From positions 1 to 40,968 of IMG/VR virus record IMGVR_UViG_3300045440_000090: a stretch of DNA of 40,968 nt; one strand, 5' to 3'. The translations under genes and the position numbers were made by a program. Below, in pieces: positions 1 to 40,968 of the stretch (positions within the stretch are counted from its first letter, which is position 1; every line of letters starts with the position of its first letter). Under the pieces are notes generated by a model. It ran no database searches. It was not told the origin of the DNA and worked only from the letters and a program-made list of their open reading frames with translations. The DNA is from a virus.

Positions 1-23
1 TGGCGTCGCCCACCGGGTCGCAT

Positions 24-61
<38 letters not shown>

Positions 62-66
62 CGGCC

Positions 67-403
67 GTGGGTCATGTGGGTCACGCCCACCAGACCGCAT
101 GCCTGAACGACCGTGGGTCATGTGGGTCATGCGCCCGCACGTGCATGTGTGGGTCATGTGGGTCACGCCCACACGAGTCCAGATCAGTCCATCTAGCTGC
201 AGCCCTCCGGCGCCGGGGTTTGGGCGTGGGCGATTGTGTGGGCAGTGGCGTGGGTAGTGGCGTGGGTCATGTTTTGCAGTGCTGACGCCCCGTGTGGGCG
301 TTGTGGGTCACGCCCACGCGCCACACCCCATATACAGTACTAACATTTGCATATACAACCATTTTTTCCTAGGTTTAGACAATTGATGACCCACATGACC
401 CAC
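67..403. repeat. Iteron-like array of GTGGGTCA octamers
   Basis: The octamer GTGGGTCA occurs at 67, 76, 113, 122, 149, 158, 262 and 303 on the plus strand and as TGACCCAC at 387 and 396. Four pairs are spaced exactly 9 bases apart (67/76, 113/122, 149/158 and the inverted 387/396). Three copies extend into GTGGGTCACGCCCAC (76-90, 158-172, 303-317), a 5-bp stem with a 5-nt loop. Another octamer lies just outside the repeat at 38292. Regular direct repeats beside an AT-rich patch resemble iterons of a replication origin or a multi-site operator; the function is inferred. Confidence 0.8.
318..384. other. AT-rich patch inside the iteron region (candidate unwinding element)
   Basis: Between the forward octamers and the inverted pair lies an AT-rich patch (ATATACAG, CATATACAACC, a T6 run, TTTAGACAATTGA) in otherwise very GC-rich DNA. 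Iterons beside an easily melted segment is the usual layout of theta-type origins. No initiator gene is adjacent, so this stays a hypothesis. It could also be a promoter region for the plus-strand small genes. Confidence 0.35.
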
Positions 404-498
404 CCATAGGGCGCAAGGCCTACCCACGACACGCCCACACGATCGCCCACGCCATCGCCCACGCGCCCAGGGCGCAGACCCTGTCAGCAATAGGGTCA

Positions 499-528
499 TA
501 GACAACACACTACATAGCGCGTTACACT
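499..528 (+). promoter_or_regulatory. Putative sigma70-like promoter for the left accessory operon
   Basis: TAGACA (499-504, one mismatch to the consensus -35) is 18 bases upstream of TACACT (523-528, four of six to the -10). Initiation near 535 would give a leader of about 40 nt before the ATG at 577. It is the best promoter-like pair upstream of the plus-strand block and is duplicated at 38800-38829. Confidence 0.45.
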
Positions 529-576
529 ACCTACATGTCGCCGCGAACCCGCAGCGACGCAACCGGAGCACGCAAC

Positions 577-744
577 ATGACAACAATCAACAATCCCGAC
601 GATGGTGTCACTGTCACCATCACGCTAGTCGCACGCGGCTGGCTAGTGCGCATGACCGACGACGACAGCGGCGGTATCGTCGGCGACCGTATCTTCCCCG
701 ACGAAACCGCCGCGCTGGCTTACGCTCGCAAGATTGTCGGCTGA
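577..744 (+). CDS. Small hypothetical protein, paralogue of the 2214-2414 product
   Basis: This encodes 55 residues. The start at 577 is preferred over an in-frame ATG at 535 because GGAG lies 8 bases upstream of it. The product aligns over nearly its full length with the protein at 2214-2414: both have an NPDDG motif near the N terminus, an R-M-x-DDDSG segment in the middle, and end in ALAYA-(R/H)-KI-(V/A)-G. That marks a gene duplication within the same operon. No signal peptide or membrane segment is visible and I do not recognise the family. It is first in the operon and followed by a stem-loop. Confidence 0.75.
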   Translation: MTTINNPDDGVTVTITLVARGWLVRMTDDDSGGIVGDRIFPDETAALAYARKIVG

Positions 745-753
745 CATCAACCC

Positions 754-770
754 GAGGCGCCTAGCGCCTC
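754..770 (+). other. Intergenic stem-loop
   Basis: GAGGCGC and GCGCCTC form a perfect 7-bp stem around the loop CTA between the first gene and the GP88 gene. No T run follows, so it is more likely an RNA-processing, stabilising or translation-modulating hairpin than a terminator. Confidence 0.5.
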
Positions 771-789
771 ATTAGTAGAGTACACAAAA

Positions 790-1449
790 ATGCACACAAT
801 GATCTTTGCGGCGCCGCGCCGCTTTATGACCCTCAAGCTTGCGAAGAGCATCGCCGGCAGTCTAGGCAAGCCCAGCAAAATGCCGGGGCGCAGCTATGGC
901 ATCAGCGCTGATCTGTGCAATGTCGGCGCGAAGCTCGCGCAGATCATTGGTTCAGTCTGTCATGGCTGCTACGCCATGAAAGCGAACTACAAATACCCGT
1001 CAGTCAAAACCGCGCATGCGAACCGCGTCGCCGGGCTGTCGTCCGTGTCATGGGTTGACGCGATGATCAAACAGATCGGGCACAGTCAAACCGATTACTT
1101 TAGGTGGCATGACGCTGGAGACATCCAGAGCTTCCAACACCTGTTGGACATTGTCAGGGTCGCGGAAGCTTTGCCGGCGGTTGCATTCTGGATACCGACA
1201 CGGGAAAGCGGCCTCATAAAACGGTTCGCCGATTGTTTCGGTGCTTTCCCGTCGAACCTATGCGTTCGTGTCAGCGCAGCAATGATTGACGGCAAACCGC
1301 CGGCAGGCTTTGAGAACACCAGTACTGTGCATGCCCTCAAGCCGGTGCAAGGCTTCGCATGCCCAGCGCCGACTCAGGGCAACAAATGCGAAGACTGCCG
1401 CGCATGCTGGGATAAGGGCAACACTAACACCAGCTATCACAAGCATTGA
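790..1449 (+). CDS. GP88-family cysteine-rich protein
   Basis: This encodes 219 residues resembling the phage GP88 family, whose activity is not established as far as I know. Conserved-looking blocks are C43, then CHGCYA (57-62), FRWHDAGD (104-111), FWIPTRES (133-140), VRVSAA (159-164) and a C-terminal cysteine cluster C191, C200, C203 and C206 before a histidine-rich tail (YHKH). The paired cysteines suggest a metal or iron-sulfur site. The start at 790 has only a weak purine-rich leader. It is the largest gene in the left block, flanked by stem-loops on both sides, which may set its dose apart from its neighbours. The family call rests on motif recognition. Confidence 0.75.
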   Translation: MHTMIFAAPRRFMTLKLAKSIAGSLGKPSKMPGRSYGISADLCNVGAKLAQIIGSVCHGCYAMKANYKYPSVKTAHANRVAGLSSVSWVDAMIKQIGHSQTDYFRWHDAGDIQSFQHLLDIVRVAEALPAVAFWIPTRESGLIKRFADCFGAFPSNLCVRVSAAMIDGKPPAGFENTSTVHALKPVQGFACPAPTQGNKCEDCRACWDKGNTNTSYHKH

Positions 1450-1455
1450 TTTTCA

Positions 1456-1494
1456 GGGCATGCGCTAGCGGCGCATGCCCGGACAATCCAGTCC
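1456..1494 (+). other. Double stem-loop downstream of the GP88 gene
   Basis: GGGCATGCGC (1456-1465) and GCGCATGCCC (1471-1480) form a perfect 10-bp stem with a 5-nt loop. It is followed directly by GGAC (1481-1484) and GTCC (1491-1494). There is no U tract. The next gene's ribosome-binding site (AGGGG) starts just after, so the element may protect RNA ends or tune expression of the gene at 1509. Confidence 0.5.
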
Positions 1495-1508
1495 GATAGG
1501 GGTCGACA

Positions 1509-1727
1509 ATGATTCATCTTACTGAAACAGGGTTTCACGCCGGCCGCCGGCTTTGCCTGACGTCACGCGACGACGGCGCGCAGAATGCGCACGCGTCATA
1601 TGCGCCGCTGAAAAACCCGGCGTATCGGGCAACATGCTGCGGCGTATGCCTGAAAACATGGGCCGATGAGGCCTATGACGACGGCGACGACATGCCCGAC
1701 TACATCACAGCGTTGCGCGCAGCATGA
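1509..1727 (+). CDS. Small hypothetical protein with CCxxC motif
   Basis: This encodes 72 residues starting at an ATG preceded by AGGGG at a suitable distance. The central segment has two adjacent cysteines and a third three residues later (CCGVC), which could bind a metal ion. The C terminus is acidic (DDGDDMPDYI). No membrane segment is visible. The stop overlaps the start of the micro-gene at 1724 in an ATGA junction, so the two are probably translationally coupled. I do not recognise the family. Confidence 0.65.
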   Translation: MIHLTETGFHAGRRLCLTSRDDGAQNAHASYAPLKNPAYRATCCGVCLKTWADEAYDDGDDMPDYITALRAA

Positions 1728-1795
1728 TCCGCGACGCATTGTTCGCCATCGCGCTCGGCCTGGCCGGCGCGCTGTTTTTGTTCTATTCACTCTAA
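1724..1795 (+). CDS. 23-residue single-helix membrane peptide
   Basis: ATGA overlap with the previous stop starts a 23-codon reading frame. After MIRDA it is an almost continuous hydrophobic stretch (LFAIALGLAGALFLFYSL), enough for one membrane-spanning helix. The overlap gives a coupled start, and the next gene begins 9 bases after its stop, so it fills an otherwise empty gap exactly. It is too short for family assignment. A role in membrane modification, superinfection exclusion or lysis is possible but unproven. Confidence 0.55.
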   Translation: MIRDALFAIALGLAGALFLFYSL

Positions 1796-1804
1796 GGGTT
1801 CATC

Positions 1805-2014
1805 ATGTTTAATTTGACATATAAAACTGTCGCTAATATTGATTTTAGCGGGCTAGGGTTTTACGTCGAGGAGGGTCAATTGTTCGACGCGGACGATTAT
1901 GCGGAAGCATACCGCATTAATCGCGACGATATCGACTATCAGTCGATTCACGCCGTTCAAGATGCCGCTGGCCACCTGAGCCCGGGCGAATGGCTGCAGG
2001 TAGAGCACGCATGA
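1805..2014 (+). CDS. Small acidic hypothetical protein
   Basis: This encodes 69 residues, with AAGGG about 7 bases before the ATG. The protein is acidic (VEEGQLFDADDY, RDDIDY), without cysteines or a membrane segment. The stop overlaps the start of the next gene at 2011 (ATGA). I do not recognise it. The compact acidic composition resembles DNA-mimic or inhibitor-type phage proteins, but nothing specific supports that. Confidence 0.65.
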   Translation: MFNLTYKTVANIDFSGLGFYVEEGQLFDADDYAEAYRINRDDIDYQSIHAVQDAAGHLSPGEWLQVEHA

Positions 2015-2217
2015 TCGCCCGCTATCCCGGCGTGTGCGCACGCACTGGGCGCGCCATCAAGCCGGGTGACGTGATCACGTTCACCAGCGGCCGCAAGGTC
2101 GTGCTAGTCGAACACCAGCGCGTCAGCGACACGGTCCAGTTCGGCGACCGCACGTTTTATCGTAATCGCAACGGTCGTTGCGAGGACGCGCCTTGCTGCG
2201 GGTGCTGCACGATATGA
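2011..2217 (+). CDS. Small hypothetical protein with cysteine-rich C terminus
   Basis: This encodes 68 residues from the ATG at 2011, which overlaps the preceding stop. An upstream in-frame start at 1990 would run further into the previous gene. The N terminus has a basic segment (CARTGRAIKPGD) reminiscent of small zinc or beta-barrel proteins. The C terminus packs five cysteines into about eleven residues (CEDAPCCGCC). Metal binding is plausible. The stop overlaps the start of the gene at 2214. Confidence 0.6.
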   Translation: MIARYPGVCARTGRAIKPGDVITFTSGRKVVLVEHQRVSDTVQFGDRTFYRNRNGRCEDAPCCGCCTI

Positions 2218-2414
2218 GCTACCATCGCACAATCATTAAGATGATCAGCAACCCCGACGACGGGACAACCGTCGAAGTCTCGCACGCCTCAGCGCGCTAT
2301 TGTGTCCGCATGCGGGACGACGATAGCGGAAACTGGCTGCCCGTCGCGCGCGTCTATTCGACCGAAGATGACGCGCTGGCCTATGCTCACAAAATTGCAG
2401 GAGTTGACCAATGA
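2214..2414 (+). CDS. Small hypothetical protein, paralogue of the 577-744 product
   Basis: This encodes 66 residues from the ATG at 2214, which overlaps the stop of the previous gene; an internal ATG at 2241 is an alternative. It shares NPDDG, then R-M-x-DDDSG, and the ending ALAYA-(H)-KI-A-G with the first gene of the operon, so the pair arose by duplication. No function is known to me. Its own stop overlaps the next start at 2411. Confidence 0.7.
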   Translation: MSYHRTIIKMISNPDDGTTVEVSHASARYCVRMRDDDSGNWLPVARVYSTEDDALAYAHKIAGVDQ

Positions 2415-2602
2415 AAACCGACAACAGCGGGCGCCAATGGCGCCTTATCGACCGGCGCCCCGGCGTCGAATTGTGGCGCGCCGATGATGACGACGCGCAT
2501 GGGTTCGCCGTTTGCTTACCCGGTGATGAGCCGGATCACGCGACATGGGCGACAACGACCATGGAGGCCATCGCCCGCCAGTGGTTCGCCCAGGCGTGCT
2601 GA
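2411..2602 (+). CDS. Small hypothetical acidic protein, possibly a distant relative of the two paralogues
   Basis: This encodes 63 residues with an ATGA overlap to the preceding gene. The layout (an aromatic strand, R-A-DDDD, then a short beta segment and a C-terminal helix with EAIARQW) loosely parallels the paralogues at 577 and 2214, but identity is too low to claim homology. Its last codons overlap the micro-gene starting at 2596. Confidence 0.6.
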   Translation: MKTDNSGRQWRLIDRRPGVELWRADDDDAHGFAVCLPGDEPDHATWATTTMEAIARQWFAQAC

Positions 2603-2658
2603 CCGCGCTCGTTGTCGGCCTGCTAGCCTTACTGCTAGCCGCCCTGCTAGACCTCTAA
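2596..2658 (+). CDS. Putative 20-residue hydrophobic peptide (GTG start)
   Basis: A GTG overlapping the end of the previous gene opens 20 codons encoding an almost entirely hydrophobic helix (LTALVVGLLALLLAALL) ending just before the terminator. In the right copy the three substituted bases change Leu to Leu (CTC to TTG) and Val to Leu (GTT to CTT), so the hydrophobic peptide is kept. The start is non-standard and the frame very short, so coding status is uncertain. Confidence 0.4.
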   Translation: MLTALVVGLLALLLAALLDL

Positions 2659-2680
2659 CCCGCCACTGGCGGGTTTTTTT
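2659..2680 (+). terminator. Intrinsic terminator of the left operon
   Basis: CCCGCC (2659-2664) and GGCGGG (2668-2673) make a perfect 6-bp GC stem with loop ACT, followed by seven T. It starts directly after the stop of the last small gene and ends the plus-strand operon facing the convergent primase-helicase gene. The right copy of the repeat is cut in this loop. Confidence 0.9.
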
Positions 2681-2681
2681 A

Positions 2682-2720
2682 CGCCTGCAGGCGCCTGCAT
2701 GTTGACTGCAAGCGCCTGCA
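2682..2720. repeat. Three short CGCCTGCA repeats
   Basis: CGCCTGCA occurs at 2682, 2692 and 2713, between the terminator and the stop of the minus-strand gene. The last two are the longer GCGCCTGCATGT repeated at a 21-base interval. They lie just outside the terminal repeat. Confidence 0.5.
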
Positions 2721-2724
2721 TGTG

Positions 2725-4944
2725 CTAGACCGCCCGCAGCACCGTAGGCGCAGCCGGCGCCTCTACCATGTCGCGTAGCTGGCTCTTGCTGTACTTTGCG
2801 GACATGTCAGCGGCGACAAATATCTGTCGCTTTGTCGCATGCTCTCGCGAGTGGACGCGGCCCATATCCTGCCATCCGGCCTCATTGAGCGCATGCATAA
2901 GCGCGCTGGGGTGAATCCGATGCTGGCCTGGCTGCGTCAACGCGTCGCAGATCGAGTGCCACGGGCCTGCCAGCACGCCCAGCGCAAACACATCCTGACG
3001 CGCCTCGATGAGCAATTGCAGGTACTCTTCATGCGCCGACCGACCGCGCTCGACCATAATCGCCTTCGCCTCGGTCATCGGTGGCGACGCGCCTGGCAAA
3101 AACGCCGACACGTCTCGCGCCGCCAGATACCCGGCGACGATCGCGTTGCCGCCGGCCTCATACCATGCCCACATGGCGGCGCCTTCCGCGTCAGTCATGC
3201 GGGGCGCGTCGGACCACACGCAAAACCAGCGCCTATCGTTGCTGGGGATCGAGATAGCTGCGCGTTCGTTCGAAAAACACAAGACCCAAATTCTGTTCAA
3301 AGCGTTGTAGGGGTGCAGGCCTTTGCGGTTGACGGGCAGGTATTCCGGCGGCGCTGCAATGATGGGCTTGAGGACGTTTTCCATCGCCCTACGGTCTCGC
3401 GCCTCCGCCTGGCGAAGCTCGTTGATCACCATGACCTCGGCCTCGAGGGCGTACCCCCACGACGACGATAGCTCTTCGTTTTTGACGATGGACACGTTAG
3501 ACCGACCGATAGCCCACAGGAAGGGCGCGTACAAAGTGTCTTTCCCGCTGCCGGGTAGACCGCCGTGCAGCACGGCGTGGTTGATCTTGCGGTCAGCATG
3601 CTGCAGCTTGTACGCCAGCACATCAAGCACGTGCTCGCGCTCGAACTGTTCGGGTATCAGGCGCTCGACATGCTCAAGCCACCGCGACGCATCGCCCTCG
3701 GCCGTCGGTGGCCTGGCGTCGCGCCAGCGGTTGCCATAGACCGCGCCGTCCATTGTTGCGAGGACCGACGCGCCAGCGGCGTAGGTGACGCCTTGCAGCG
3801 TCCGGGCGCCCTTCGCCTGGCGGTTTTCGTCATAACAGACACTGGCGGGCACCTTAGCCTTGCCCTCGCCGTGGATCGATTTGCACGGTATATGGGCAAA
3901 CACCGCGTTGAACGACTTGCGCATGATCTCGCGGCGTTCCATCATGTCGAAATATGCGTCGTCCGAAATAATATAAGCGAACCGTTCGTACCATTCGGCC
4001 TTCTCCAACCGGCCCATCTCTTTGCGGTTGACCTCGCGGATAATCTCGACGGTCTCATCGGGAAAGGCGGTCGTCGGCGATATCTTGCCCAGTGCGCCGG
4101 CCATCACCGTCGCCAGCAGTTCGTCGCGCAGGCCGTGCTGGTGATCAGGCCCGCCTTGTTCAGCCACCCATGTCAGGTAGCGGGCCGAGTTCCAGTCGTC
4201 GACGCAGTGACCGTGGAAGCAGGTATAAGCCCGCGAAACGGGCCTGTAACGGCCCATCGGATTGCCGTCGGTATGCTCGGCTGCGTTCGGGCAAACGACG
4301 CCGCACCAGCCCTCGCCGTTGCTGTTCTCCAGCAAGTCGCCACGCTCGGCGATCCACGCCAGCACGTCATCATCGCCGTCATCCGCGAGGCCGACCGGGC
4401 GCATCACGGCGGTGTCGGCAACACCCGGCGTGACGCCCAGCGCGGCGCATATCTCAGCTACGCTGTACTCGCGGCCGGGGGTGAACTCAGTCAGCACCGA
4501 GATAAACCCGTTTTTCTGGTTGATCGAGCCTGGCAGTCTAAAATTCCGCACCGGGTTGCAGGCGCCGGGGTCGGTGTAGCCGGCGGCAGCGATGGCCTTG
4601 ATGGCTGCGCTGAACTCGCCGACCGTGGGCTGTTCGTTGAACGCATACCCATACTGGAAGTTACCCGGTGACGTTTCCATGATCCATGTCGGCGGCAGCG
4701 GCGGCAGCTTGCTCTTGGTGCCAATATCGTCCAGCATCATCGCAAGACAATGAGTGCAGTTAGACGCAGATGCCGACACTCGACCGTCGACGAATCGGGA
4801 CACGATAAAACTACCCGTATTGCAGTACCAAGACGCCTCACCGCGCCATTTTTCCGGCAGATATGCCGGCCATGTGTTGTCTTTTTGTTTCACCACCAGC
4901 GCAGTTTCACCCTCAACTGCCAACGATGCGATATAGTTCAGCAC
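2725..4944 (-). CDS. Primase-helicase (RepB-like primase plus DUF5906-type ATPase)
   Basis: This encodes 739 residues. I place the start at the GTG at 4944 because a perfect AAGGAG sits 8 bases upstream; an in-frame ATG at 4974 lies inside a hairpin. The N-terminal third resembles archaeo-eukaryotic-type primases (ETSPGNFQYG near 90-99, then NFRLPGSINQK near 134-144). A cysteine/histidine segment follows (CPNAAEH near 218-224, CFHGHC near 242-247). The C-terminal half has a Walker A GLPGSGKDT near 462-470 and a Walker B-like VMVINEL near 504-510, as in phage helicases of the DUF5906 group. It would prime and unwind DNA at the fork with the adjacent PolA polymerase. Confidence 0.85.
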   Translation of the reverse strand: MLNYIASLAVEGETALVVKQKDNTWPAYLPEKWRGEASWYCNTGSFIVSRFVDGRVSASASNCTHCLAMMLDDIGTKSKLPPLPPTWIMETSPGNFQYGYAFNEQPTVGEFSAAIKAIAAAGYTDPGACNPVRNFRLPGSINQKNGFISVLTEFTPGREYSVAEICAALGVTPGVADTAVMRPVGLADDGDDDVLAWIAERGDLLENSNGEGWCGVVCPNAAEHTDGNPMGRYRPVSRAYTCFHGHCVDDWNSARYLTWVAEQGGPDHQHGLRDELLATVMAGALGKISPTTAFPDETVEIIREVNRKEMGRLEKAEWYERFAYIISDDAYFDMMERREIMRKSFNAVFAHIPCKSIHGEGKAKVPASVCYDENRQAKGARTLQGVTYAAGASVLATMDGAVYGNRWRDARPPTAEGDASRWLEHVERLIPEQFEREHVLDVLAYKLQHADRKINHAVLHGGLPGSGKDTLYAPFLWAIGRSNVSIVKNEELSSSWGYALEAEVMVINELRQAEARDRRAMENVLKPIIAAPPEYLPVNRKGLHPYNALNRIWVLCFSNERAAISIPSNDRRWFCVWSDAPRMTDAEGAAMWAWYEAGGNAIVAGYLAARDVSAFLPGASPPMTEAKAIMVERGRSAHEEYLQLLIEARQDVFALGVLAGPWHSICDALTQPGQHRIHPSALMHALNEAGWQDMGRVHSREHATKRQIFVAADMSAKYSKSQLRDMVEAPAAPTVLRAV

Positions 4945-4952
4945 GTAGAAAA

Positions 4953-4981
4953 CTCCTTTTAGGGCGCCTTGCACGGCGCCC
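4953..4981 (-). promoter_or_regulatory. Hairpin and strong RBS in front of the primase-helicase
   Basis: GGGCGCC (4962-4968) and GGCGCCC (4975-4981) form a 7-bp stem between the polymerase stop and the primase gene. Read on the minus strand it is followed by AAGGAG (4953-4958) and the GTG start, so it probably protects or separates the two messages. Read on the plus strand it is followed by TTTCTTTT and could terminate antisense transcription. Confidence 0.6.
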
Positions 4982-4987
4982 TTTCTT

Positions 4988-6862
4988 TTAGGGCTTGCCG
5001 TAACGCGACATCACCTTGATGTCAACCGCAAGTGGCAGGCCGGATGCCCAAGCGGGCGGGGTACACATCACCTGGCGCAGCGCATCTACGTCAGGCGAAG
5101 CGGTCTCGATGACCAACTCATCATGCACTGTCAACACAACGTCATCGACCTGGCGCAGCGAGTACCGCAGCAAATCGTTGGCCACGGCCTGGCAGATGTT
5201 CTCTGCTGCCAGGCCGCTCCAGAGACGCGCTCGGGGCCACTCGGTAGCGCCCTGGGCGGGTTTCCACGCGCACTTGGCGTAGCTGACACCATCCGGTTCG
5301 AAGCGCGCATAGGGGTAGCATAGTACTCTGCCCGACGGCAGCGCGTACCATAGATGGACGCCGTCAAACAGGTAAAAGACGCGGCCAGCGGCGAACTCCT
5401 GACCGGGGTTGCGCATGGCGCGCATGTAGGCCGACTCCAGCGCCTGCCAGTACTTCACGGCCCACTGGTTGGCGCGCCGCCAAGCGTCTACGGTGCGCCT
5501 GGCAGCGGCCTCGGGCAGGTGGACACCGTAGTTGCGGCCCATCGCGGCGAACGCGCCCACGCTGCCGCCGTAGCCGCAACTCAGGATCGCGACCTTGCCG
5601 ATCTGGCGCATGTCGGGCGTCACTTCGTCGGTCTTAAAAATCAACGACGCCTCGCGAACGTAGATGTCTTGGCCAGAGCGGAACACATTAAGCACATCCT
5701 CGCCGTTGCCGGAGAGCCACGGGTTGCACCGGGCCTCGATGCCCGACCAGTCGGCCACGACGAAATGCTTACCCGCTGCCGGGATCAGCGCAGGCCGGAG
5801 CATGCCCTTCAAGACATCCGTGACGCGCTTGCCGTAGGCCGGCACGATGGGTGCGTCTGCCACCATCGAGTCGCGCACCTGCTGCGGCGAGGAGGCACAC
5901 TTGCGCGTGAAGTTGTGGACTTGCAGGCCGTACGACGAAAGCCTGCCCGTCGCAGCGCCGCCATTGAAGACGAACGCACCGCGCACGCGGTGGTCCTCCT
6001 CATCGGCCAGCGCCGCCATGCGGGCGAACTTGGCCACCGACGACGCCCAGAGATCGTCAGCGGACTGGACGACCTCGCGCACATCCGGATCGAGATCGTC
6101 GCAGGCTAGCAGGTTGGCGCGAACGGCCTTGTCGATGCTGATCTTGTCCTCGACCGTCATCAACTTCAGTTGCTCGGGCGAGACGCGGTCTTGCACCCAC
6201 TGGCGCATCTTGGGCGAACGAACGGATGTCACGGCACCCTGCGTCACCTTGGCGACAGTGTCCTGTATCTCAATCAGTTCGGCGCTGGCGTAGCGCACGG
6301 CAGAACGTGCTAGCTCAACATCGACTAGCACACCGCGATCATTGATGCGCTCGTTGACATGGTAGTCGAGCAGTTCATCGTCGGACAGAGAGCGCATGCC
6401 TTTGCTGATCGCTCTCGTGGCGCGGACGTCCTGCGCGCAGTACTCAAACAGCTCGGGGAGCAGCGCCGTGTTATACGGCGGGATGCAGCACTGGCGCACC
6501 AGATGGCCACCTCGGTGGTCCTTGCGCATCGACGCGCCGGCGAAGCGGCCAGCGTCTTCCAGACTGCCAGGCGCACAGTTGGCGCGGGCCTGCGCGGCGG
6601 TGCAGTAGAACTGCTCTAGCGGGTAGTCCTGTTGGAGGACGTACCAAAAGATGAGCCGCTCGAAAGCGGCGTTGTGGGCGCGTATTTGGTGGCCTGTGAA
6701 ATCAGGCAACGCGCCACCGGTCCACATCTGGACCTCGCCGTCATCATACGCATAAGCCATGCACAGTACTTCTGTGGACAAGCTCTGCGCATAATTATAT
6801 AGCCCTTGCGTACGCAAATCACAATTACTTTTTGTTTCAAAATCAATCCAACACGTAGGCAT
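4988..6862 (-). CDS. DNA polymerase I-type (PolA) replicative DNA polymerase
   Basis: This encodes 624 residues, smaller than bacterial Pol I and lacking a 5' nuclease domain, as in phage replicases. Exonuclease motifs: WIDFETK with D7 and E9, AHNAAFER (62-69), and YCAQD (141-145). Polymerase motifs: A, VVADWSGIEAR with D371; B, RQIGKVAILSCGYGG with R419, K423 and Y431; C, VHDE (579-582). Both active sites look intact. The ATG at 6862 has AGGA a few bases upstream, inside the 3' end of the HNH gene, which it overlaps by 20 bases. It is followed by the primase-helicase gene and probably copies the phage genome with it. Confidence 0.93.
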   Translation of the reverse strand: MPTCWIDFETKSNCDLRTQGLYNYAQSLSTEVLCMAYAYDDGEVQMWTGGALPDFTGHQIRAHNAAFERLIFWYVLQQDYPLEQFYCTAAQARANCAPGSLEDAGRFAGASMRKDHRGGHLVRQCCIPPYNTALLPELFEYCAQDVRATRAISKGMRSLSDDELLDYHVNERINDRGVLVDVELARSAVRYASAELIEIQDTVAKVTQGAVTSVRSPKMRQWVQDRVSPEQLKLMTVEDKISIDKAVRANLLACDDLDPDVREVVQSADDLWASSVAKFARMAALADEEDHRVRGAFVFNGGAATGRLSSYGLQVHNFTRKCASSPQQVRDSMVADAPIVPAYGKRVTDVLKGMLRPALIPAAGKHFVVADWSGIEARCNPWLSGNGEDVLNVFRSGQDIYVREASLIFKTDEVTPDMRQIGKVAILSCGYGGSVGAFAAMGRNYGVHLPEAAARRTVDAWRRANQWAVKYWQALESAYMRAMRNPGQEFAAGRVFYLFDGVHLWYALPSGRVLCYPYARFEPDGVSYAKCAWKPAQGATEWPRARLWSGLAAENICQAVANDLLRYSLRQVDDVVLTVHDELVIETASPDVDALRQVMCTPPAWASGLPLAVDIKVMSRYGKP

Positions 6863-7313
6863 ATGTTTTTCCTGCTTTTATGTTGGATATAGTATGCCTA
6901 TCTACGCCATACTTTGAAGCTATTGTTTTTATACTCGTGCCAAGCAAAATATCGTTTCGTATGCGCCGTACATCCAACGCCGAAAACGCACCCACTTCAA
7001 ACAAAGTTCGACGATCAGCACGATTTTCTTTTACTGTGCCCCAGCGTAAATTGCTTACCAAATTATTTGCGGGATTTCCATCTAAATGCCTGCACTCAAC
7101 ACGTTCGCCGATAACAGGCTTGCAGGCTACAAAAGCCAAAAGCACTAAGTGATGCACATACACCGTTTGTCTGGCTAGCTTAACGCTTATGTGCCCGCTT
7201 GCAAGCACTGCCATGCTCAAAACTCTACGATGCAATAGCGATCTGACGCGGCCCAAGTCGCTCACCTCGTAGCGCCCTTCATGCCCCGGTACGGCTTTCC
7301 AATTTTCAGTCAT
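6843..7313 (-). CDS. NUMOD4-type HNH homing endonuclease
   Basis: This encodes 156 residues from the ATG at 7313. The N terminus is a NUMOD4 module (WKAVPGHEGRYEVSDLGRVRS), followed by an HNH core with the HH pair at 54-55 and a HLDGNPANNLVSNLRWGT block (76-93). A C-terminal helix-turn-helix (about 125-149, TSIKTIASKYGVDRHTISNI) would position it on DNA. Such enzymes cut phage DNA at a specific site and spread their own gene. It sits between the replication genes, directly ahead of the polymerase and overlapping its first codons, as free-standing homing genes often do. The upstream 72-nt structured element probably controls or accompanies it. Confidence 0.88.
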   Translation of the reverse strand: MTENWKAVPGHEGRYEVSDLGRVRSLLHRRVLSMAVLASGHISVKLARQTVYVHHLVLLAFVACKPVIGERVECRHLDGNPANNLVSNLRWGTVKENRADRRTLFEVGAFSALDVRRIRNDILLGTSIKTIASKYGVDRHTISNIKAGKTYAYVLD

Positions 7314-7321
7314 ACACCCGC

Positions 7322-7403
7322 CAAAGAAAAAAGCCCTAGTCTGAACTCTCACCGTGAGGTGTTGGCGGACTCGCAAGATACGAGCAGAGTTCAGGCTAGG
7401 GCT
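7322..7403 (-). terminator. Long structured hairpin with U-rich tail ahead of the HNH gene
   Basis: On the minus strand, the 18 bases at 7403-7386 pair with those at 7349-7332 with a single C-A mismatch. The 36-nt interior can form a second hairpin (CTCG, 7-nt loop, CGAG) and holds a CTCA/TGAG pair. A TTTTTTCTTT run (7331-7322) follows the closing stem, 9 bases before the HNH start codon at 7313. The size and branched interior exceed an ordinary terminator. It could terminate or attenuate readthrough from the upstream nuclease genes into the HNH gene, or be an RNA that belongs to the mobile HNH element. Confidence 0.6.
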
Positions 7404-7449
7404 TACCTTGAGCGCGCCGCCAAGCGCGCATGCATCTTACCGTATAAAG

Positions 7450-8067
7450 TTATGCCCGACGGCGGCGGGTCGGCTCGGTGGATGGCTCTGTAGGTTCATC
7501 GCCCTCCATGCCGATCCACGACTGCACATCGAACAGCGGCGTGTAAATCTTGCCGAACGACTTGTGCTGGTAGAACTCCTTGTTGAGCAGGATCACCGGC
7601 ACTGGCTTGCTCGGGTCGGCCTCGACCTGCGCCGCAATGGCCACGGCGATGGTCTGAACGCCGCGCTTGCCGCCCACTGACGTAGATGAGTAGCGCACTT
7701 CCAGACCCTTGTCCTCGCCGGTCAGGCACTTCAAGCTCATGCCGACCTGCTGCTCCCAGCCCTTCTTGGCGCCAGCAGGCACCGGGCCGTGCTCTGGCAA
7801 CGGCTCGGACACCGACGCCATCATTTCGCCGAGAACTTCACCATCGCCCCACGCGATCCAGCCGTGGACGAACGCAAACGGGTTGACCGCCCAGGTCGAG
7901 CCGGCCTCGGCCTCATCCTGATCGCTGCCAAAGACCCAATGCCCGGTGCGGTCCATCTTGAGGATGGCCACACCAGGCGCCTCACGCGGCGCGATGGAGC
8001 GCAACGATTGGGCGAGGGATGCGACTGCCGGCAAGCCGGCTGATTTGAATGCTACGAGATTGGACAT
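7450..8067 (-). CDS. Hypothetical protein of the replication/recombination cluster
   Basis: This encodes 205 residues. The ATG at 8067 overlaps the DUF2800 stop (TAATG) and has AAAGGT upstream. The protein ends in a proline/threonine-rich, then arginine-rich tail (TRRRRA). There are no catalytic motifs I recognise. The position beside a Cas4-like nuclease and ahead of PolA suggests a DNA-binding partner, for example a single-strand binding protein, but this rests on context alone. It is followed by the structured terminator at 7322-7403. Confidence 0.6.
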   Translation of the reverse strand: MSNLVAFKSAGLPAVASLAQSLRSIAPREAPGVAILKMDRTGHWVFGSDQDEAEAGSTWAVNPFAFVHGWIAWGDGEVLGEMMASVSEPLPEHGPVPAGAKKGWEQQVGMSLKCLTGEDKGLEVRYSSTSVGGKRGVQTIAVAIAAQVEADPSKPVPVILLNKEFYQHKSFGKIYTPLFDVQSWIGMEGDEPTEPSTEPTRRRRA

Positions 8068-9128
8068 TACAGTACCTTTTTCAAAAGTTGACCCAATTGC
8101 AAGATGGCTGGCCGGGGGTCGGAATCCGGTGCCATTGTGTTGCCCGACGACACGCTGACAGTAAGGCCGTCGGGGAGCTTTTTGAGCTTCTTTTCGGCCA
8201 CTGCTGGCGAGACCAACGTCACAACGTCGGGGTCTTTCAGGCCGGCTTCGACCAAGGCAACCCGCGCCTTGTCCTCATCCAACCATTTCCTTGTGCCGCG
8301 CTTGGCGACCAGTTTGAAGCCGGGGATGACCTGGCCGTTGTCCAGAGCGCGCTGCGCCAACTCGCGCAGGCCGGCGATCCAACTGTCGAGCAGGTCGGCC
8401 TGTTGCAAGTAGATGCTGATCTGCTGCTTGTCCAGCGCGTCGAACTGCACCTTGACGGCGCGGTCGACTGCGCCGGTCAGGATGGGGCAGACTGGCTTTG
8501 CGGTACACCACCGGCAGTGGTCACCGCTCTTCAGCGCCGCGTCAGGCTTGACCGCCTGCTGCACCGCGTCAAAGAGTTGGTCTTCAAACCGCGATATCCG
8601 AGCGCGGGTGGTGACCCAACGCTTGATCATCGGCGGCTGGATGATGACCAGCTCGACCTCGGTCACGCCTTCAAAGGCCCAAGGCTGGGACCGACGGGCC
8701 GCAGCAGCATAAAACATGAGCTGCATGTTTTCCTCGGCCTCGACAATGACACCGTCGCCGAACTTCCAGTCGAGGATGATGGCGCGGTTGCCGATCTTGC
8801 CCAGCACATCGACGCTGCCAAAGACGCCGGGGATGAAGTCGCCGAAGTCGACGCGCACCTCGACGGCCAGTTCCATGTCCTTGTCGGGATCGACCTGATC
8901 CAGCAGCGCCAGTGCCGGCACGATCTTGGTGTCGTGCAGCTCTTCGCTGATGCGCTGGGGCGTCTTGCCGTCGATGATGGCCGCGATGACATCGTGCAGC
9001 AACGTACCCTCGGCGGCGTACTTGCTTTCGACCTGGGGCGGCATCTTGGCCGTCAGGGCGACGGAACCGGGGCAGTTGATGACCCGGCTGGCGGTGCTAC
9101 CACCGACGATCTTACTGTGCTGAGTCAT
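8067..9128 (-). CDS. DUF2800 Cas4/RecB-like PD-(D/E)XK nuclease
   Basis: This encodes 353 residues from the ATG at 9128; a longer frame from 9158 adds only lysine-rich codons overlapping the upstream gene. Nuclease residues are in order: E40 and H45 (AEGTLLHD), D107 (GSVD), D120-W-K122 (ILDWKFG) and Q136. Four cysteines, C19 and C205, C208 and C214 (CRWCTAKPVC), have the spacing of the iron-sulfur site of Cas4/AddB-type nucleases. It probably resects or processes DNA ends during phage replication or recombination. Its start overlaps the preceding small gene and its stop overlaps the next start, so the three are coupled. Confidence 0.85.
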   Translation of the reverse strand: MTQHSKIVGGSTASRVINCPGSVALTAKMPPQVESKYAAEGTLLHDVIAAIIDGKTPQRISEELHDTKIVPALALLDQVDPDKDMELAVEVRVDFGDFIPGVFGSVDVLGKIGNRAIILDWKFGDGVIVEAEENMQLMFYAAAARRSQPWAFEGVTEVELVIIQPPMIKRWVTTRARISRFEDQLFDAVQQAVKPDAALKSGDHCRWCTAKPVCPILTGAVDRAVKVQFDALDKQQISIYLQQADLLDSWIAGLRELAQRALDNGQVIPGFKLVAKRGTRKWLDEDKARVALVEAGLKDPDVVTLVSPAVAEKKLKKLPDGLTVSVSSGNTMAPDSDPRPAILQLGQLLKKVL

Positions 9129-9282
9129 CTTGCGCTTCTTCTTCTTTAGCCTCGACAAACGTTGCTGTCGTGGTGTAGCTGTAGCCCCTCAGTTCGTCCA
9201 AATCGAACTGCTCGCCGAACGCGGCGCGAACATGGTCTAGCAAGATGGCCTTGATGTCTGTGTCGTCTAGGATGATCTTCAC
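9112..9282 (-). CDS. Small hypothetical protein, first gene of the replication operon (GTG start)
   Basis: This encodes 56 residues. The GTG at 9282 is chosen because AAGGAG lies 9 bases upstream (9292-9297); longer in-frame starts would overlap the promoter. The C terminus is very acidic (EAKEEEAQDD). No family is recognised. It is the first product made from the minus-strand promoter at 9314-9342 and overlaps the DUF2800 gene by 17 bases. Confidence 0.65.
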   Translation of the reverse strand: MKIILDDTDIKAILLDHVRAAFGEQFDLDELRGYSYTTTATFVEAKEEEAQDDSAQ

Positions 9283-9313
9283 TTTACTGTACTCCTTGGT
9301 TGATGGAACCTGA

Positions 9314-9342
9314 ACTGTAGCGGACCAAAAAAGACTTGTCAA
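9314..9342 (-). promoter_or_regulatory. Strong sigma70-like promoter for the replication operon
   Basis: On the minus strand, a perfect TTGACA (9342-9337) is followed after exactly 17 bases by TACAGT (9319-9314). It drives the operon starting at 9282. Its -35 overlaps the -35 of the opposing promoter, so the two may compete. An ACTGT half-site lies in its -10. Confidence 0.7.
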
Positions 9343-9365
9343 GAACTTTTTTACTGTGTTACAGT
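9336..9365 (+). promoter_or_regulatory. Divergent promoter and ACTGT palindrome
   Basis: TTGTCA (9336-9341) and TACAGT (9360-9365), 18 bases apart, face the plus-strand operon. The -10 is part of the palindrome ACTGT-GTT-ACAGT (9353-9365). Further ACTGT boxes lie at 9286, 9314 and 9423. A regulator binding these boxes could switch both divergent operons; no such regulator is identified. Confidence 0.5.
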
Positions 9366-9386
9366 TGTGCCTCAACAGGAGCAGAC

Positions 9387-9689
9387 ATGATCACTTTCCA
9401 GACCGCCCCTCGAGGGACCGCCACTGTAACAGAGGCCCACGCGCAGTCAATGCGCGATGTCTTTGCCGGCCTCAAGCCGCTGCGCCCGACCAAGATCAAG
9501 GCCCACAAACGCAGTTTTCCAAAATTTTTTAGCTCGACCGCAGACTACATCAGACAGTACTTTGAGTTGAACAGTCACTGGGCGCTTGCGGCTTACGACA
9601 AGCACACTGATCACAACGCGTTGTACCACCCGCTGCCCTACCGCGTTGCGCGTCTCAACCCGTCAGAGCCTGAAGTTGAGGGAAGCTGA
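9387..9689 (+). CDS. Hypothetical protein, first gene of the plus-strand early operon
   Basis: This encodes 100 residues. The ATG at 9387 is preceded by AGGAG at 5 bases, a clear site; a longer frame from 9336 would start inside the promoter. The product is rich in basic and aromatic residues (KAHKRSFPKFF) and has no recognised domain. Its end overlaps the start of the VRR-NUC gene. Confidence 0.7.
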   Translation: MITFQTAPRGTATVTEAHAQSMRDVFAGLKPLRPTKIKAHKRSFPKFFSSTADYIRQYFELNSHWALAAYDKHTDHNALYHPLPYRVARLNPSEPEVEGS

Positions 9690-9954
9690 TGTCGAGCGGC
9701 ACCTTGTCCGTCTGGTCGAGAAGGCCGGCGGCAAGGCGTACAAGTTTGTTAGCCCGGGCCGGGCCGGCGTGGCCGACCGCCTGGTCGTGCTACCTGGCGG
9801 GCGCGTCTGGTTTGTTGAACTCAAGGTTAAGGGCGGTCGCTTGTCGGCGTTGCAGCAGGTCTTCGCGGCCGACATGGCCGCGCTAGGTCAGAACTACATC
9901 GTGTTGTGGAACAAGGAGGACGTAAATGACTGGACTGGAAAAAATTGCGGGTGA
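9676..9954 (+). CDS. VRR-NUC domain nuclease
   Basis: This encodes 92 residues if started at the TTG at 9676; no ATG precedes the domain in this frame, so the start is uncertain. The domain is a compact VRR-NUC PD-(D/E)XK fold: an N-terminal helix with E (READVERHL), GRAGVADRLVVLPGG with the metal-binding D, and WFVELKVKGG with the E-x-K pair, followed by S-x-LQQ. Stand-alone phage VRR-NUC enzymes are thought to resolve branched DNA and often neighbour SNF2-type helicases, as here. Confidence 0.85.
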   Translation: MREADVERHLVRLVEKAGGKAYKFVSPGRAGVADRLVVLPGGRVWFVELKVKGGRLSALQQVFAADMAALGQNYIVLWNKEDVNDWTGKNCG

Positions 9955-10117
9955 GGCATTGGTGGCGCTAGAGACGTACAACCGGTACGACATAAAGACA
10001 GACCGGTTTTTGCACAGCACAGACTTGATCTACGAGCTACGCAAGGTTCTAAACCACAAGCGCAGCCCCCTACGCGAACCGATAGTACGAACGCTTTTCA
10101 AGAGCCATGATTCTTAG
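9926..10117 (+). CDS. Small hypothetical protein
   Basis: This encodes 63 residues with a strong AAGGAGG 6 bases before the ATG. It overlaps the end of the VRR-NUC gene and the beginning of the helicase gene. It is helical and charged, without cysteines or a membrane segment. Its place between nuclease and helicase suggests a part in DNA processing, but no family is recognised. Confidence 0.65.
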   Translation: MTGLEKIAGEALVALETYNRYDIKTDRFLHSTDLIYELRKVLNHKRSPLREPIVRTLFKSHDS

Positions 10118-11369
10118 ACCGTATCAGTCCATTGCGGCTAGCTTTTTGTATGAGCATGACCGGGCGATGATTCTCGCGCCGGTCGGCGCGGGCAAGACAG
10201 CCATCACTCTAACCGCCATGCGCGAGATGCTGCGCGACGGCCACGCCAGTCGGTTCCTCGTGCTGGCGCCAAAGCGTGTAGCCGAGCATGTCTGGGAAGA
10301 AGAACGCCAGAAGTGGGCGCCTGAGATTACGATGGCGGTCGCCGTGGGCACGGCCAAGCAACGCGCTGCTGCGCTGCGGGCTGACGTGCAGGTCGTGGTG
10401 ACCAACTACGAGAACCTACCCACGGGCGGGTTCGACGGCGTGGTGTTTGATGAGTTGACCAGGCTGAAGAACCCGAGCGGCCAGCGGTTCAAGCTGCTGG
10501 AGAAGTTTTTGCGCGAGGTCAACATCCGATGGGGCCTGACCGGCAGCTTCACCAGCAACGGCCTAGAAGATGTCTTTGGCCAGTGCAAGATCATCGACAC
10601 GGCGCTGCTGGGCCGCACCAAGGGCGCCTTCCAGCAGCAGTACTTCATTCAGATCAACAAGGAGTTCAACCAGTGGGAGCCACGCGCCGGGGCGCTGGAG
10701 CAGGTGATGGAGCGCATCAAGCCGTCCACGTTCTTACTTGAGTCGTACACGCTGCCAGACTTGAACGTGGTCGAGGTGCGCTGCCGGATGGACTTGGCCA
10801 AGTACAAGCAGATGAAGAAGGACATGGTGCTGGAGTTCCCCGACGCCCGCGCCATCGCGGTCAACGCTGGCGTGGTGACGGGCAAGCTCCAGCAGATGGC
10901 CTCGGGGTTCGTCTACGCCGACGGCGCGCCGCAGTGGATGTCACCCCACAAGTTCGACGCGCTGGATGATTTGCTGGCCGAGAATCAACGCGCCAACACG
11001 CTGATTGCGTACAGCTTTAAGGCCGAACTGGCTGAACTGAAGCGGCGCTACCCGCACGCGCAGACGCTGGACGATGACAACGTCATTGAGCGGTGGAACA
11101 AGGGTGAGGTCGAGCTGCTACTGGTTCACCCCAAGAGCGCCGGCCACGGGTTGAACCTACAGTACGGCGGCTGCAAGGTAGTGTTCCTGTCGCTGCCCTG
11201 GTCGCTGGAGTTGTACGAGCAGACCATAGGCCGGCTGCACCGCAGCGGCCAGGCGCATCCGGTTTGGGTTTACCTGATGATCACCGACAAGACGGTCGAT
11301 GAGAAGATTTGGCGCGCACTGCGCGACAAGCGAACGATTTCTGACATAGCAATAGAGGAGCTGAAATGA
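10107..11369 (+). CDS. SNF2-family DNA helicase/translocase
   Basis: This encodes 420 residues. The first RecA lobe has motif I LAPVGAGKT (23-31), motif II DELT (115-118) in place of DEAH, and motif III-like GLTGS (143-147). The second lobe ends with GHGLNLQ and motif VI GRLHRSGQ (375-382), typical of compact phage SNF2 proteins. It would use ATP to move on double-stranded DNA, probably together with the VRR-NUC nuclease two genes upstream, in replication-fork or recombination processing. All ATPase residues appear present. It overlaps its neighbours by 11 and 4 bases. Confidence 0.92.
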   Translation: MILRPYQSIAASFLYEHDRAMILAPVGAGKTAITLTAMREMLRDGHASRFLVLAPKRVAEHVWEEERQKWAPEITMAVAVGTAKQRAAALRADVQVVVTNYENLPTGGFDGVVFDELTRLKNPSGQRFKLLEKFLREVNIRWGLTGSFTSNGLEDVFGQCKIIDTALLGRTKGAFQQQYFIQINKEFNQWEPRAGALEQVMERIKPSTFLLESYTLPDLNVVEVRCRMDLAKYKQMKKDMVLEFPDARAIAVNAGVVTGKLQQMASGFVYADGAPQWMSPHKFDALDDLLAENQRANTLIAYSFKAELAELKRRYPHAQTLDDDNVIERWNKGEVELLLVHPKSAGHGLNLQYGGCKVVFLSLPWSLELYEQTIGRLHRSGQAHPVWVYLMITDKTVDEKIWRALRDKRTISDIAIEELK

Positions 11370-11557
11370 AACTTACTTGGCGAAGCATGCACGAGGTGCT
11401 GACGAAACTGTCTGAAGAAGAAGTGCTGAAGCTGTTGCAAGAGGAGCAGGCCGGGGCCAACCGCATCACCATCCTGTTGCGCCTGCACCAACGGTACTGC
11501 GTCCTGCGCCTTGAGCGCGAGCGCATCCTGATCCTGCGCGGGGCGATGGCGGCATGA
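11366..11557 (+). CDS. Small helical hypothetical protein
   Basis: This encodes 63 residues with GAGGAG 5 bases before an ATG that overlaps the helicase stop. The sequence is predicted almost all helical with leucine and glutamate repeats (LSEEEVLKLLQEEQ), then a basic second helix (LRLHQRYCVLRLERERILILRG). The pattern suits a small coiled-coil or adaptor protein. No family is recognised. Confidence 0.65.
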   Translation: MKLTWRSMHEVLTKLSEEEVLKLLQEEQAGANRITILLRLHQRYCVLRLERERILILRGAMAA

Positions 11558-11757
11558 GGAAGCCACCAAGCATTGGGTGGTGGCCATGCGGCCCGCACTG
11601 GCTGCGCTGGTGGGACGGTGAGCACTGGTCTTGGCCGTGCTTTGACTCTGACGGCATTAGCGCCGTGAAAGTGTACGGCAACCGGATTGACAAGAACGCA
11701 AAAGACGTTAGGTGGTATCCACGGCCAGACAGCTGGCCTGAGAGGAGCAAGACATGA
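11554..11757 (+). CDS. Small tryptophan-rich hypothetical protein
   Basis: This encodes 67 residues with an ATGA overlap to the previous gene. Eight tryptophans, most of them in the first half (WWPCGPHWLRWWDGEHWSW), mark it clearly, but I cannot assign a function. No membrane helix is predicted because charged residues are interspersed. Confidence 0.65.
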   Translation: MRKPPSIGWWPCGPHWLRWWDGEHWSWPCFDSDGISAVKVYGNRIDKNAKDVRWYPRPDSWPERSKT

Positions 11758-11858
11758 AAGACAGGGAAGAGTACTTCTGTAAGGCTGCGGCTCGCCAGAG
11801 CCTGTTCTGCGCCGTCTGGATCGTCGCCTTGGTGGCGCTGGTCGCGTGGTTGGTATGA
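11754..11858 (+). CDS. 34-residue single-TM peptide
   Basis: An ATGA overlap with the previous stop and a GAGGAG in front give a 34-codon frame: a charged N terminus (MKDREEYFCKAAARQ) and then one membrane helix (SLFCAVWIVALVALVAWLV). It is likely cytoplasm-in, membrane-anchored. It sits a few genes upstream of the lysis cassette, so a role as accessory holin is possible but unproven. Confidence 0.6.
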   Translation: MKDREEYFCKAAARQSLFCAVWIVALVALVAWLV

Positions 11859-11989
11859 CACACATCGGATGGATGGTCACCACCGAGTTTGGCGTCTGCA
11901 TCCTGCTCACTAGGCGCCGGGAAGAGATGCAGTACTGGGTGGACCTCGGATGCGATGCGGTGCCGCTGTATGCAATGCCCTCGCTGTAA
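11855..11989 (+). CDS. 44-residue hypothetical protein
   Basis: This encodes 44 residues, coupled by ATGA to the previous gene. It begins MTHIGWMVTTEFGVCILL, a weakly hydrophobic stretch, followed by a basic RRREE patch. It overlaps the zinc-ribbon gene by 20 bases. The compact gene packing supports translation; the function is unknown. Confidence 0.5.
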   Translation: MTHIGWMVTTEFGVCILLTRRREEMQYWVDLGCDAVPLYAMPSL

Positions 11990-12227
11990 CGCGCCAGCCG
12001 GCGTGCTTGAGACCCGGCAGCGTCCCAATAACCTGACTTGGAGAAGGTACAAATGCTACAACAACCACCGGTTTTCCACAACGGAACAACTAAGCGATTT
12101 GCCCGTTCGCTCGACGAAGCCTTCGGGGGAGACGGGTACGCTATACACCACTACAGAAACCGGTGGAGTTGGGTCAACCGCGTTGCCGTCTGCGTTCTTT
12201 GCGCTTTGGCACTGGTGTGGGGAGTGA
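11970..12227 (+). CDS. Zinc-ribbon protein with NrdR-like N terminus
   Basis: This encodes 85 residues from the ATG at 11970. The first 40 residues resemble the zinc ribbon of NrdR and related phage proteins: CPRC, then a basic segment (TWRRYKC) and CYNNHRFSTTE. The remaining 45 residues are threonine/serine-rich and share their DNA with the gene at 12053 in another frame, so that part may be under little constraint. It probably binds nucleic acid, perhaps as a small regulator; the target is unknown. Confidence 0.65.
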   Translation: MQCPRCNAPAGVLETRQRPNNLTWRRYKCYNNHRFSTTEQLSDLPVRSTKPSGETGTLYTTTETGGVGSTALPSAFFALWHWCGE

Positions 12228-12241
12228 CGCTGTGGACTTGA
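12053..12241 (+). CDS. Small membrane protein ahead of the lysozyme
   Basis: This encodes 62 residues; GAGAAGG sits just upstream of the ATG at 12053. The N-terminal half is soluble with an RSLDEAFG segment, and the C terminus is one membrane helix (VNRVAVCVLCALALVWGVTL). It overlaps the zinc-ribbon gene for 175 bases in a different frame and the lysozyme start by 10 bases. The position suggests a lysis-associated membrane protein, but the protein with three-TM holin features is encoded downstream at 12642. Confidence 0.6.
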   Translation: MLQQPPVFHNGTTKRFARSLDEAFGGDGYAIHHYRNRWSWVNRVAVCVLCALALVWGVTLWT

Positions 12242-19459: not shown

Positions 19460-19461
19460 GA

Positions 19462-37085: not shown

Positions 37086-37753
37086 CAGCGGGTAGTCTTG
37101 TACGGGTTGGCTTGCGCGTCGCGCAGCGCCATGTCAAGCAGCACCCTGAACTCTGTCGACAACGTCGGGTCTACATGCGCCGGCGCTCCTCTAGCGCCTT
37201 GGTTACCCATAGCAAAAGCAGGTAGCTCTGTCACCGATGCGCGGTAGCGACTGTTTTGTTTTACCCAGTCAGGTGCCAAACGGCTTGCCATAGCCTCTGT
37301 CTGAAACACCGTAGGCGCGGCAAACATCCCGCGACCTTGTTCGTTTGTTCTTAGTAACCTGTCGTAGGCGTCTTTGAACCGCTGTTTGGCTTCTACGTCT
37401 TTTGCGCCTTCTTGACGGTACTGCCGCCCCATCTGGTAGTGCGCAGCATGCGTCAATTCGTGAATAAGACTGTTGGGGTCGTTGGCGTTGTAGTTTATTG
37501 TGACTTCACCTGTAACCGGAAGTTCGCGGCCAAACACGGTGTTTCGGTTGTACTCCGCGTTTGTGCCTTCCGGCAAGTACCCTTGCTTGACTGGCGGCAT
37601 GGCACTGCGCGCCATCAAGTAGTCCGCAAGCTCTTGGTACTGAGGCTGTTCGCTGGCGATCTGCCGCATCAGTCGAATCTTGTCGTCGCCGCGCAAACTT
37701 TGCAGCTTTTCAAGCGCGTTGTCCGACTTGGGCATCAGCTTGTTAGTCGCCAT
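37085..37753 (-). CDS. Putative zinc metallopeptidase (HExxH) between the terminase genes
   Basis: This encodes 222 residues from the ATG at 37753, with GAGGAA a few bases upstream. LIHELTHAAHYQ (96-107) holds the HExxH zinc motif of gluzincin/metzincin-type peptidases, preceded by an edge strand (VTINYNAND). An acidic residue near 153 (FQTEAMASR) could be a third ligand. Upstream of the motif is a helical region. A protease wedged between small and large terminase genes is unusual; it could process capsid or host proteins, or bind zinc structurally. Confidence 0.65.
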   Translation of the reverse strand: MATNKLMPKSDNALEKLQSLRGDDKIRLMRQIASEQPQYQELADYLMARSAMPPVKQGYLPEGTNAEYNRNTVFGRELPVTGEVTINYNANDPNSLIHELTHAAHYQMGRQYRQEGAKDVEAKQRFKDAYDRLLRTNEQGRGMFAAPTVFQTEAMASRLAPDWVKQNSRYRASVTELPAFAMGNQGARGAPAHVDPTLSTEFRVLLDMALRDAQANPYKTTR

Positions 37754-38144
37754 CTTTGACTTCCTCAACGTACGTTAAGCGAGCACGGGCCTCTTCAAGC
37801 GCGGTGATGACGCTGATCTTCTGATAGACATCAACGCTGATCTCTTGCTTGGCAGTCCAACCGTGGATGTGCTGAAGGATCGCCAGGCTGGCCTTGGCGT
37901 CTCCGTTCATCGACGCTTCGGACAGTTTGCCTGCATGCGCCATCTCAGCGTCGGCTTTGCCTTTTTGCGCCGCCATCTCGGCGATGGGGTCTAGCTGACA
38001 CAGCCGCCTGTATTCAACTGGCAGCATGCCGGAGGCCAGGGCCAAACTGTCGCCTTTTAGGCCCAAGCGCGCTGCATCGTAAATCTGTTGCAGTCGCGCC
38101 TCAGTCGCCCTGATCTCCCTAATCTCAAGCGGTAGGGATTTCAT
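37743..38144 (-). CDS. Terminase small subunit (putative)
   Basis: This encodes 133 residues at the head of the morphogenesis operon, two genes upstream of the large terminase. The first 60 residues fit a DNA-binding helix-turn-helix (RLQQIYDAARLGLKGDSLALASGMLPVEYRRLC). A helical oligomerisation region follows (EMAAQKGKADAEMAHAGKLSEA) with KASLAILQHIHGW. This matches the layout of small terminases, which recognise the packaging site. No clear Shine-Dalgarno sequence lies before the ATG at 38144. Confidence 0.7.
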   Translation of the reverse strand: MKSLPLEIREIRATEARLQQIYDAARLGLKGDSLALASGMLPVEYRRLCQLDPIAEMAAQKGKADAEMAHAGKLSEASMNGDAKASLAILQHIHGWTAKQEISVDVYQKISVITALEEARARLTYVEEVKDGD

Positions 38145-38877
<733 letters not shown>

Positions 38878-39045: not shown

Positions 39046-39090
39046 CATCAACCCGAGGCGCCTAGCGCCTCATTAGTAGAGTACACAAAA

Positions 39091-40959: not shown

Positions 40960-40968
40960 CCCGCCACT

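Follow-up and report, generated by a model that had tools for sequence, protein, structure and literature searches.

The virus record IMGVR_UViG_3300045440_000090 (IMG/VR), a freshwater phage sequence analysed here over its whole length of 40,968 bases (the window), carries near its left end an array of short repeats around an AT-rich patch. This array is very probably a replication origin that is bound through the wing of the phage's own SF3 primase-helicase. The array itself, its conserved layout among relatives and the covariation of the repeat with primase residues 708, 710 and 713 are all apparent from sequence comparison, while the winged-helix fold of the binding domain is a structure prediction. 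Binding to the array, its melting, the loading of two helicase rings and firing of the origin would follow from this arrangement.

Ten GTGGGTCA/TGACCCAC octamers lie within positions 67-403, eight on the plus strand (starts 67, 76, 113, 122, 149, 158, 262 and 303) and two on the minus strand (387 and 396). Four pairs are spaced by exactly 9 bp (67/76, 113/122, 149/158 and 387/396), and three octamers, at 76, 158 and 303, extend to GTGGGTCACGCCCAC. The GC content is 0.37 at 318-384, compared to 0.71 at 1-317 and 0.63 at 385-560. Octamer mapping and GC content thus bear out the original prediction in its description of the region. Instead of the hairpins that it proposed, the extended repeats more plausibly represent convergent half-sites, with GTGGGTCA facing GTGGGCG, and the direct and inverted sites face each other across the AT-rich patch. 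The whole window contains 21 octamers against 1.32 expected and a maximum of four in 100 shuffles; all fall in the array or its duplicate, and the rest of the genome contains no exact octamer.

The duplicate arises from the ends of the record, where positions 1-2667 recur as 38302-40968 with three mismatches at 2608-2611. This 2,667-bp terminal repeat most likely arose when a circularly permuted genome, a circle of 38,301 bp, was assembled with overlapping ends; the array, which had been described as present twice, would therefore be single-copy, and other features within 1-2667 or 38302-40968 are likewise unlikely to be truly duplicated. An eleventh exact octamer at 38292 stands just ahead of the overlap start, so the true array extends from there across the junction to about 462 and is cut by the contig end. 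Over this span of the circle, the looser GTGGG core occurs 23 times, as compared to 82 times genome-wide. The array therefore has the several direct short repeats at defined spacing (11 octamers, four 9-bp pairs) and the adjacent AT-rich unwinding element (318-384) that characterise an iteron origin.

The candidate binder shows an above cut-off match to DUF5906 and a conserved Walker A motif (GSGKD), as in helicases of the D5/NrS-1 class. At its N-terminus, the RepB_primase match scored 21.5 bits, under the cut-off of 24.3, and the fold comparison gave a match to the AEP fold of the S-2L PrimPol. An AlphaFold2 model (mean predicted local distance difference test score, pLDDT, of 79) predicts a C-terminal winged helix with helices at 672-678 and 689-698, strands at 702-707 and 716-720, and a turn at the wing tip formed by residues 708-715. 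The model matches the folds of the NrS-1 helicase, pox E5/D5, the African swine fever virus PrimPol and SaPI5 Rep (7ola).

Relatives were gathered as several hundred loci from IMG/VR with TerL and primase queries. Iterons were called by counting words with independent flanks, which replaced a 12-wide expectation-maximisation search that had taken coding or tandem repeats in several loci; the calls are automatic and noisy, which is expected to weaken rather than create an association. At the same place as in the window, relatives carry GTGGGTCA, GTAGTCAT, GTGGACAA, GTGGGCAA, ATTGTCAT, TTGGGTCA or ATAGTCAT. Such changes are found even where TerL and TerS are 97-99% identical to those of the window: loci L120, L121 and L126 have GTGGGTCA, whereas L122 and L127 have GTAGTCAT. 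The layout is nevertheless retained, with 316 plus-strand and 51 minus-strand sites left of the AT-rich peak and 117 and 538, respectively, right of it in 81 relatives whose arrays are clear. Sites on the same strand follow each other at one unit length: 9 bp for GTGGAC (148 times) and for TTGGGT (48 times), and mostly 8 bp where the repeat is GTAGTC, ATTGTC or ATAGTC. The expectation that related phages would show the octamer at the same place was thus borne out for the layout, although some close relatives lack GTGGGTCA itself. Loss of the repeats with gene order kept, which had been named as grounds for rejecting an origin, takes a more specific form here, in which a different octamer occupies the same layout and is accompanied by a matching change in the initiator. 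The presence or absence of the repeat among TerL relatives separates groups only partly (means of 6.7 and 4.7), and was not relied on.

The changes in the repeat are followed by the C-terminal segment of the primase-helicase. Among primases that are 93-96% identical, QDMGRVHSREHATKRQIF accompanies GTGGGTCA, and QDAGRIMSKTNTTKKQVF or its close variant SDAGRLMSKANTTKKQVF accompanies GTAGTCAT, while in L218 a primase of GTAGTC-type background has a wing like that of the window and is paired with an array of TGACCCAC. When all 560 variable primase columns were scanned across 95 deduplicated loci, residues 708, 713 and 710 ranked 1, 2 and 5 for hexamer class, and a scan for the first base of the repeat placed 710, 708 and 713 as its top three columns. 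Relatedness is controlled for in this ranking, since the columns all have the same phylogeny. The best TerS and TerL columns reached 0.70 and 0.71, respectively, compared to 1.1-1.2 for residues 713 and 708.

A phylogenetic test used a tree built from primase residues 20-695, with the wing omitted. This tree calls for a minimum of 17 changes in iteron class when classes are merged, or else 20. In the 71 loci whose iteron is well defined, all 10 independent pairs showed agreement between first-base G and Arg/Lys710 (sign test, p 0.002); of the control columns sampled, the best ordinary one scored 3.1. With all 95 loci, noisy calls included, 7.8 pairs agreed, none opposed and 4.2 showed no difference (median p 0.008). 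Where the primase cores were at least 85% identical, wing identity was 0.88 for pairs with the same iteron and 0.55 for pairs with different ones. For primases less than 70% identical in the core, residue 708 was shared in 53% of same-iteron pairs versus 8% of different-iteron pairs, which points to convergence. A reverse test sought the DNA pair GTGGGTCANGTGGGTCA in all viral contigs with no protein reference; it was only partly out of sample, with a few loci from contigs already in the set (e.g., L007 and L037). Among the matches listed, Arg710 was present in all 36 loci that hold the primase C-terminus, and residue 708 was His, Lys or Arg in 29 of them. Covariation of wing and repeat thus points to an initiator of matching specificity encoded by the replicon itself. 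Together with the layout in the 81 relatives, it supports the earlier proposal of origin iterons flanking an unwinding element.

Several observations weigh against this reading. The GC skew of the circle, which had been suggested as a check, does not mark the array and lends no support, with its extremes at 9,661 and 31,726. The array does not adjoin the primase gene but lies ∼2.3 kb past its 3' end, with oppositely oriented small genes between. The proposed residue code is also imperfect: L312 and L313 share the same wing and differ in their top repeat, and Ala708 occurs with G as well as with T. Finally, the arrays of L210, L221, L211 and L219 are weak or degenerate, with few sites in L210 and L221.

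If the array is an origin, its 8-9-bp iterons would be read by the wing of the C-terminal winged-helix domain. Copies of the primase-helicase would assemble on the direct sites to one side of the AT-rich patch and on the inverted sites to the other, the patch would melt, and one helicase ring would be loaded facing each way. The fused primase domain could then prime synthesis for the family-A polymerase of the phage. Iteron and wing would switch jointly, forming an interchangeable specificity pair, and the mode of action would resemble that of the SaPI and P4 origins; iteron arms that face each other over an AT-rich patch, together with a helicase fused to a putative primase, fit such a mode. 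Coordinates of the array and of the genes under discussion are collected in Table 1.

Table 1. Positions in the window of the candidate origin, its putative binder and the bordering TerS-like gene.
Feature	Position	Strand	Content or basis
Complete iteron array, copy uncut by contig end	38292..38763		11 exact GTGGGTCA octamers, 23 GTGGG cores
First array copy, without the 38292 site; probably an assembly duplicate	9..462		Octamer and repeat mapping
Left arm	67..310	+	Eight GTGGGTCA sites and variants GTGGGCG/CA/TA at 226, 238, 250, 294
AT-rich patch, candidate unwinding element	318..384		GC 0.37
Right arm, inverted sites	387..462	-	Exact TGACCCAC at 387, 396, then GTGGGTA/GTGGGCG variants
Primase-helicase, 749 amino acids: AEP-like N-terminus, DUF5906 (SF3/D5-type) helicase, C-terminal winged helix; proposed origin-binding initiator	2725..4974	-	
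C-terminal winged-helix domain, about residues 660-737	2764..2997	-	Predicted structure
Wing tip, residues 708-715 (HSREHATK); 708, 710, 713 covary with the repeat	2830..2853	-	
TerS-like gene	37743..38144	-	Borders the array; no covariation with the repeat

The array could instead be a multi-operator region without any role in replication, from which a regulator, possibly the primase-helicase itself, controls the divergent TerS-side and early operons. It does lie between divergent genes, and a promoter-like match is present just to its right (38800-38829, equivalent to 499-528), of a kind found 0.4 times by chance in shuffles. We nevertheless consider this unlikely. The protein that covaries with the repeat is the primase-helicase and not a repressor, and the AT-rich centre with its facing arms is conserved. 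Furthermore, the gene for a GP88-domain protein that adjoins the array (790-1449) was not found in relative G003, which keeps the array. A Pfam scan of the small neighbouring genes for a regulator returned nothing. That a replication enzyme is what covaries with the repeat weakens the multi-operator alternative offered alongside the origin, although a regulatory side-role may still accompany replication.

With a TerS-like gene at its border, the array might also be thought a pac site, to which the small terminase from that gene would bind. This is very improbable given that TerS and TerL are 97-98% identical between phages of the GTGGGTCA and GTAGTCAT classes, such that TerS specificity does not track the site, and that the repeat is tracked far more closely by the primase wing than by the best TerS column. 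Switches between close relatives recall immunity groups, in which the repeats would be repressor operators or stoperators of changing specificity. We give this even less credence, as the exact octamers all fall in one genome region rather than being dispersed, no repressor was seen among the scanned proteins and the covarying protein is again the primase-helicase. Least probable of all are diverged host DnaA boxes at a DnaA-dependent origin: TGACCCACA matches TTATCCACA at 7/9 positions, and several TATCCACA words lie upstream of TerL in L158, L160 and L170, where an SF3 primase was not found, but the array holds no TTATCCACA box within one mismatch and its repeats switch sequence in a way that a conserved host DnaA could not follow. 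L158, L160 and L170 may use a different, DnaA-linked origin.

An origin read by the primase-helicase wing raises the question of what selects for a change of this "password". We tentatively suggest, at somewhat less than even odds, that selection from satellites, co-infecting relatives or origin-aimed nucleases drives origin changes through joint swaps of the wing tip and the iteron set, which would yield a readable protein-DNA code and partition near-identical phages into replication-compatibility groups. In the code proposed here, which is offered just as guardedly, Arg/Lys710 would go with G at the first base of the iteron; at the third base, Lys/His708 would go with G and Met/Tyr708 with A, while Ala708 would often go with T. 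A literature search, in which most subscription journals were beyond reach, found neither such a code nor an origin reported for this group of phages. Replication origins have been identified in few lytic phages. In more than 100 uncultured phages, sequence was enough here to read off an origin, its binder and the residues that would set specificity, and the matched switches amount to natural experiments on joint change in an initiator and its 10-20 binding sites.

The remaining genes mark the window as a P22-like short-tailed phage, and the minus strand carries those for portal, TerL, scaffold, major head protein, head closure and DNA ejection. In the replication block, the minus strand encodes the primase-helicase, a PD-(D/E)XK exonuclease and a family-A polymerase, and the plus strand an SNF2-type helicase. 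An HNH/NUMOD4 endonuclease gene (6843-7376) overlaps the start of the polymerase gene and is probably a homing insertion, given that it has no match in G003. A nucleotide search of GenBank phages with positions 1-20000 of the window gave no match. Other repeats occur in the vicinity of the array. A GGC/CGG trinucleotide tract adjoins it at 22-62, and a dyad-like CATGTTGCAGTGCAGCAT at about 38270-38287, between array and TerS, is conserved upstream of TerS in relatives and is possibly a promoter, regulator or packaging element. In L127, L122 and L124, a second system of ∼15-bp tandem repeats (TTGCCTAGGCAATGG-like) lies between the origin array and TerS, about 500-600 bases upstream of TerL (about 1,300 in L124). 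Seventeen same-strand GTGGGTCA copies were also seen in the unrelated contigs L010, L027, L030, L064 and L077, with two of the pairs 2,835 bp apart.

Among known systems, the alpha protein of satellite phage P4, with its ori/crr, joins primase, helicase and origin recognition in one protein and acts on short iterons. The likeness to the phage studied here would lie in that combination and in the short iterons. Of the named phages, MW202483 (Manatee Spring) and DSL-LC05 come closest, by TerL (69-72%) and portal (70-74%). MW202483 (L445) encodes a primase-helicase that is 48% identical, with the wing MGMCFAPELSTKRHIYV, and has a dense TGTAAAC/GTTTACA array at the matching place (3225-3569). DSL-LC05 (L446, OR003940) has 27 TGGGTCA repeats, clustered beside TerS (33597-33958) and dispersed, which were set aside because its primase is unrelated; iterons go unmentioned in the text of its description (PMC10611076).

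In Vibrio cholerae PLE, a change in the RepA iterons escapes the origin-directed ICP1 nuclease Odn (PMC7145576, PMC8263062). The PLE resembles the present case in having an iteron origin with diversifying repeats and replication module, and in a nuclease targeting the iterons as selective cause; by analogy, it illustrates one possible cause of switching. It differs in that it is a satellite, its initiator belongs to the RepA_N family and not to SF3, and it has no residue-level code. The closest solved relative of the primase-helicase, by sequence profile (E 2e-11) and by fold, is the NrS-1 primase-polymerase (6k9c, PMC7102993), at an identity of about 17%, which has a single 8-nt recognition site in two genome copies in place of an iteron array. 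The staphylococcal islands, SaPI with Rep/ori and SCCmec with Cch2, are compared through Ubeda 2007 as cited in PMC7581432. SaPI5 Rep (7ola) structurally matches the phage primase-helicase, but the SaPI origin lies directly downstream of rep, while the array lies ∼2.3 kb from its gene. In contrast to these islands, the system described here belongs to a phage with a putative primase and a helicase fused in one protein, and its specificity can be traced to three wing-tip residues that appear to have switched at least 17 times.
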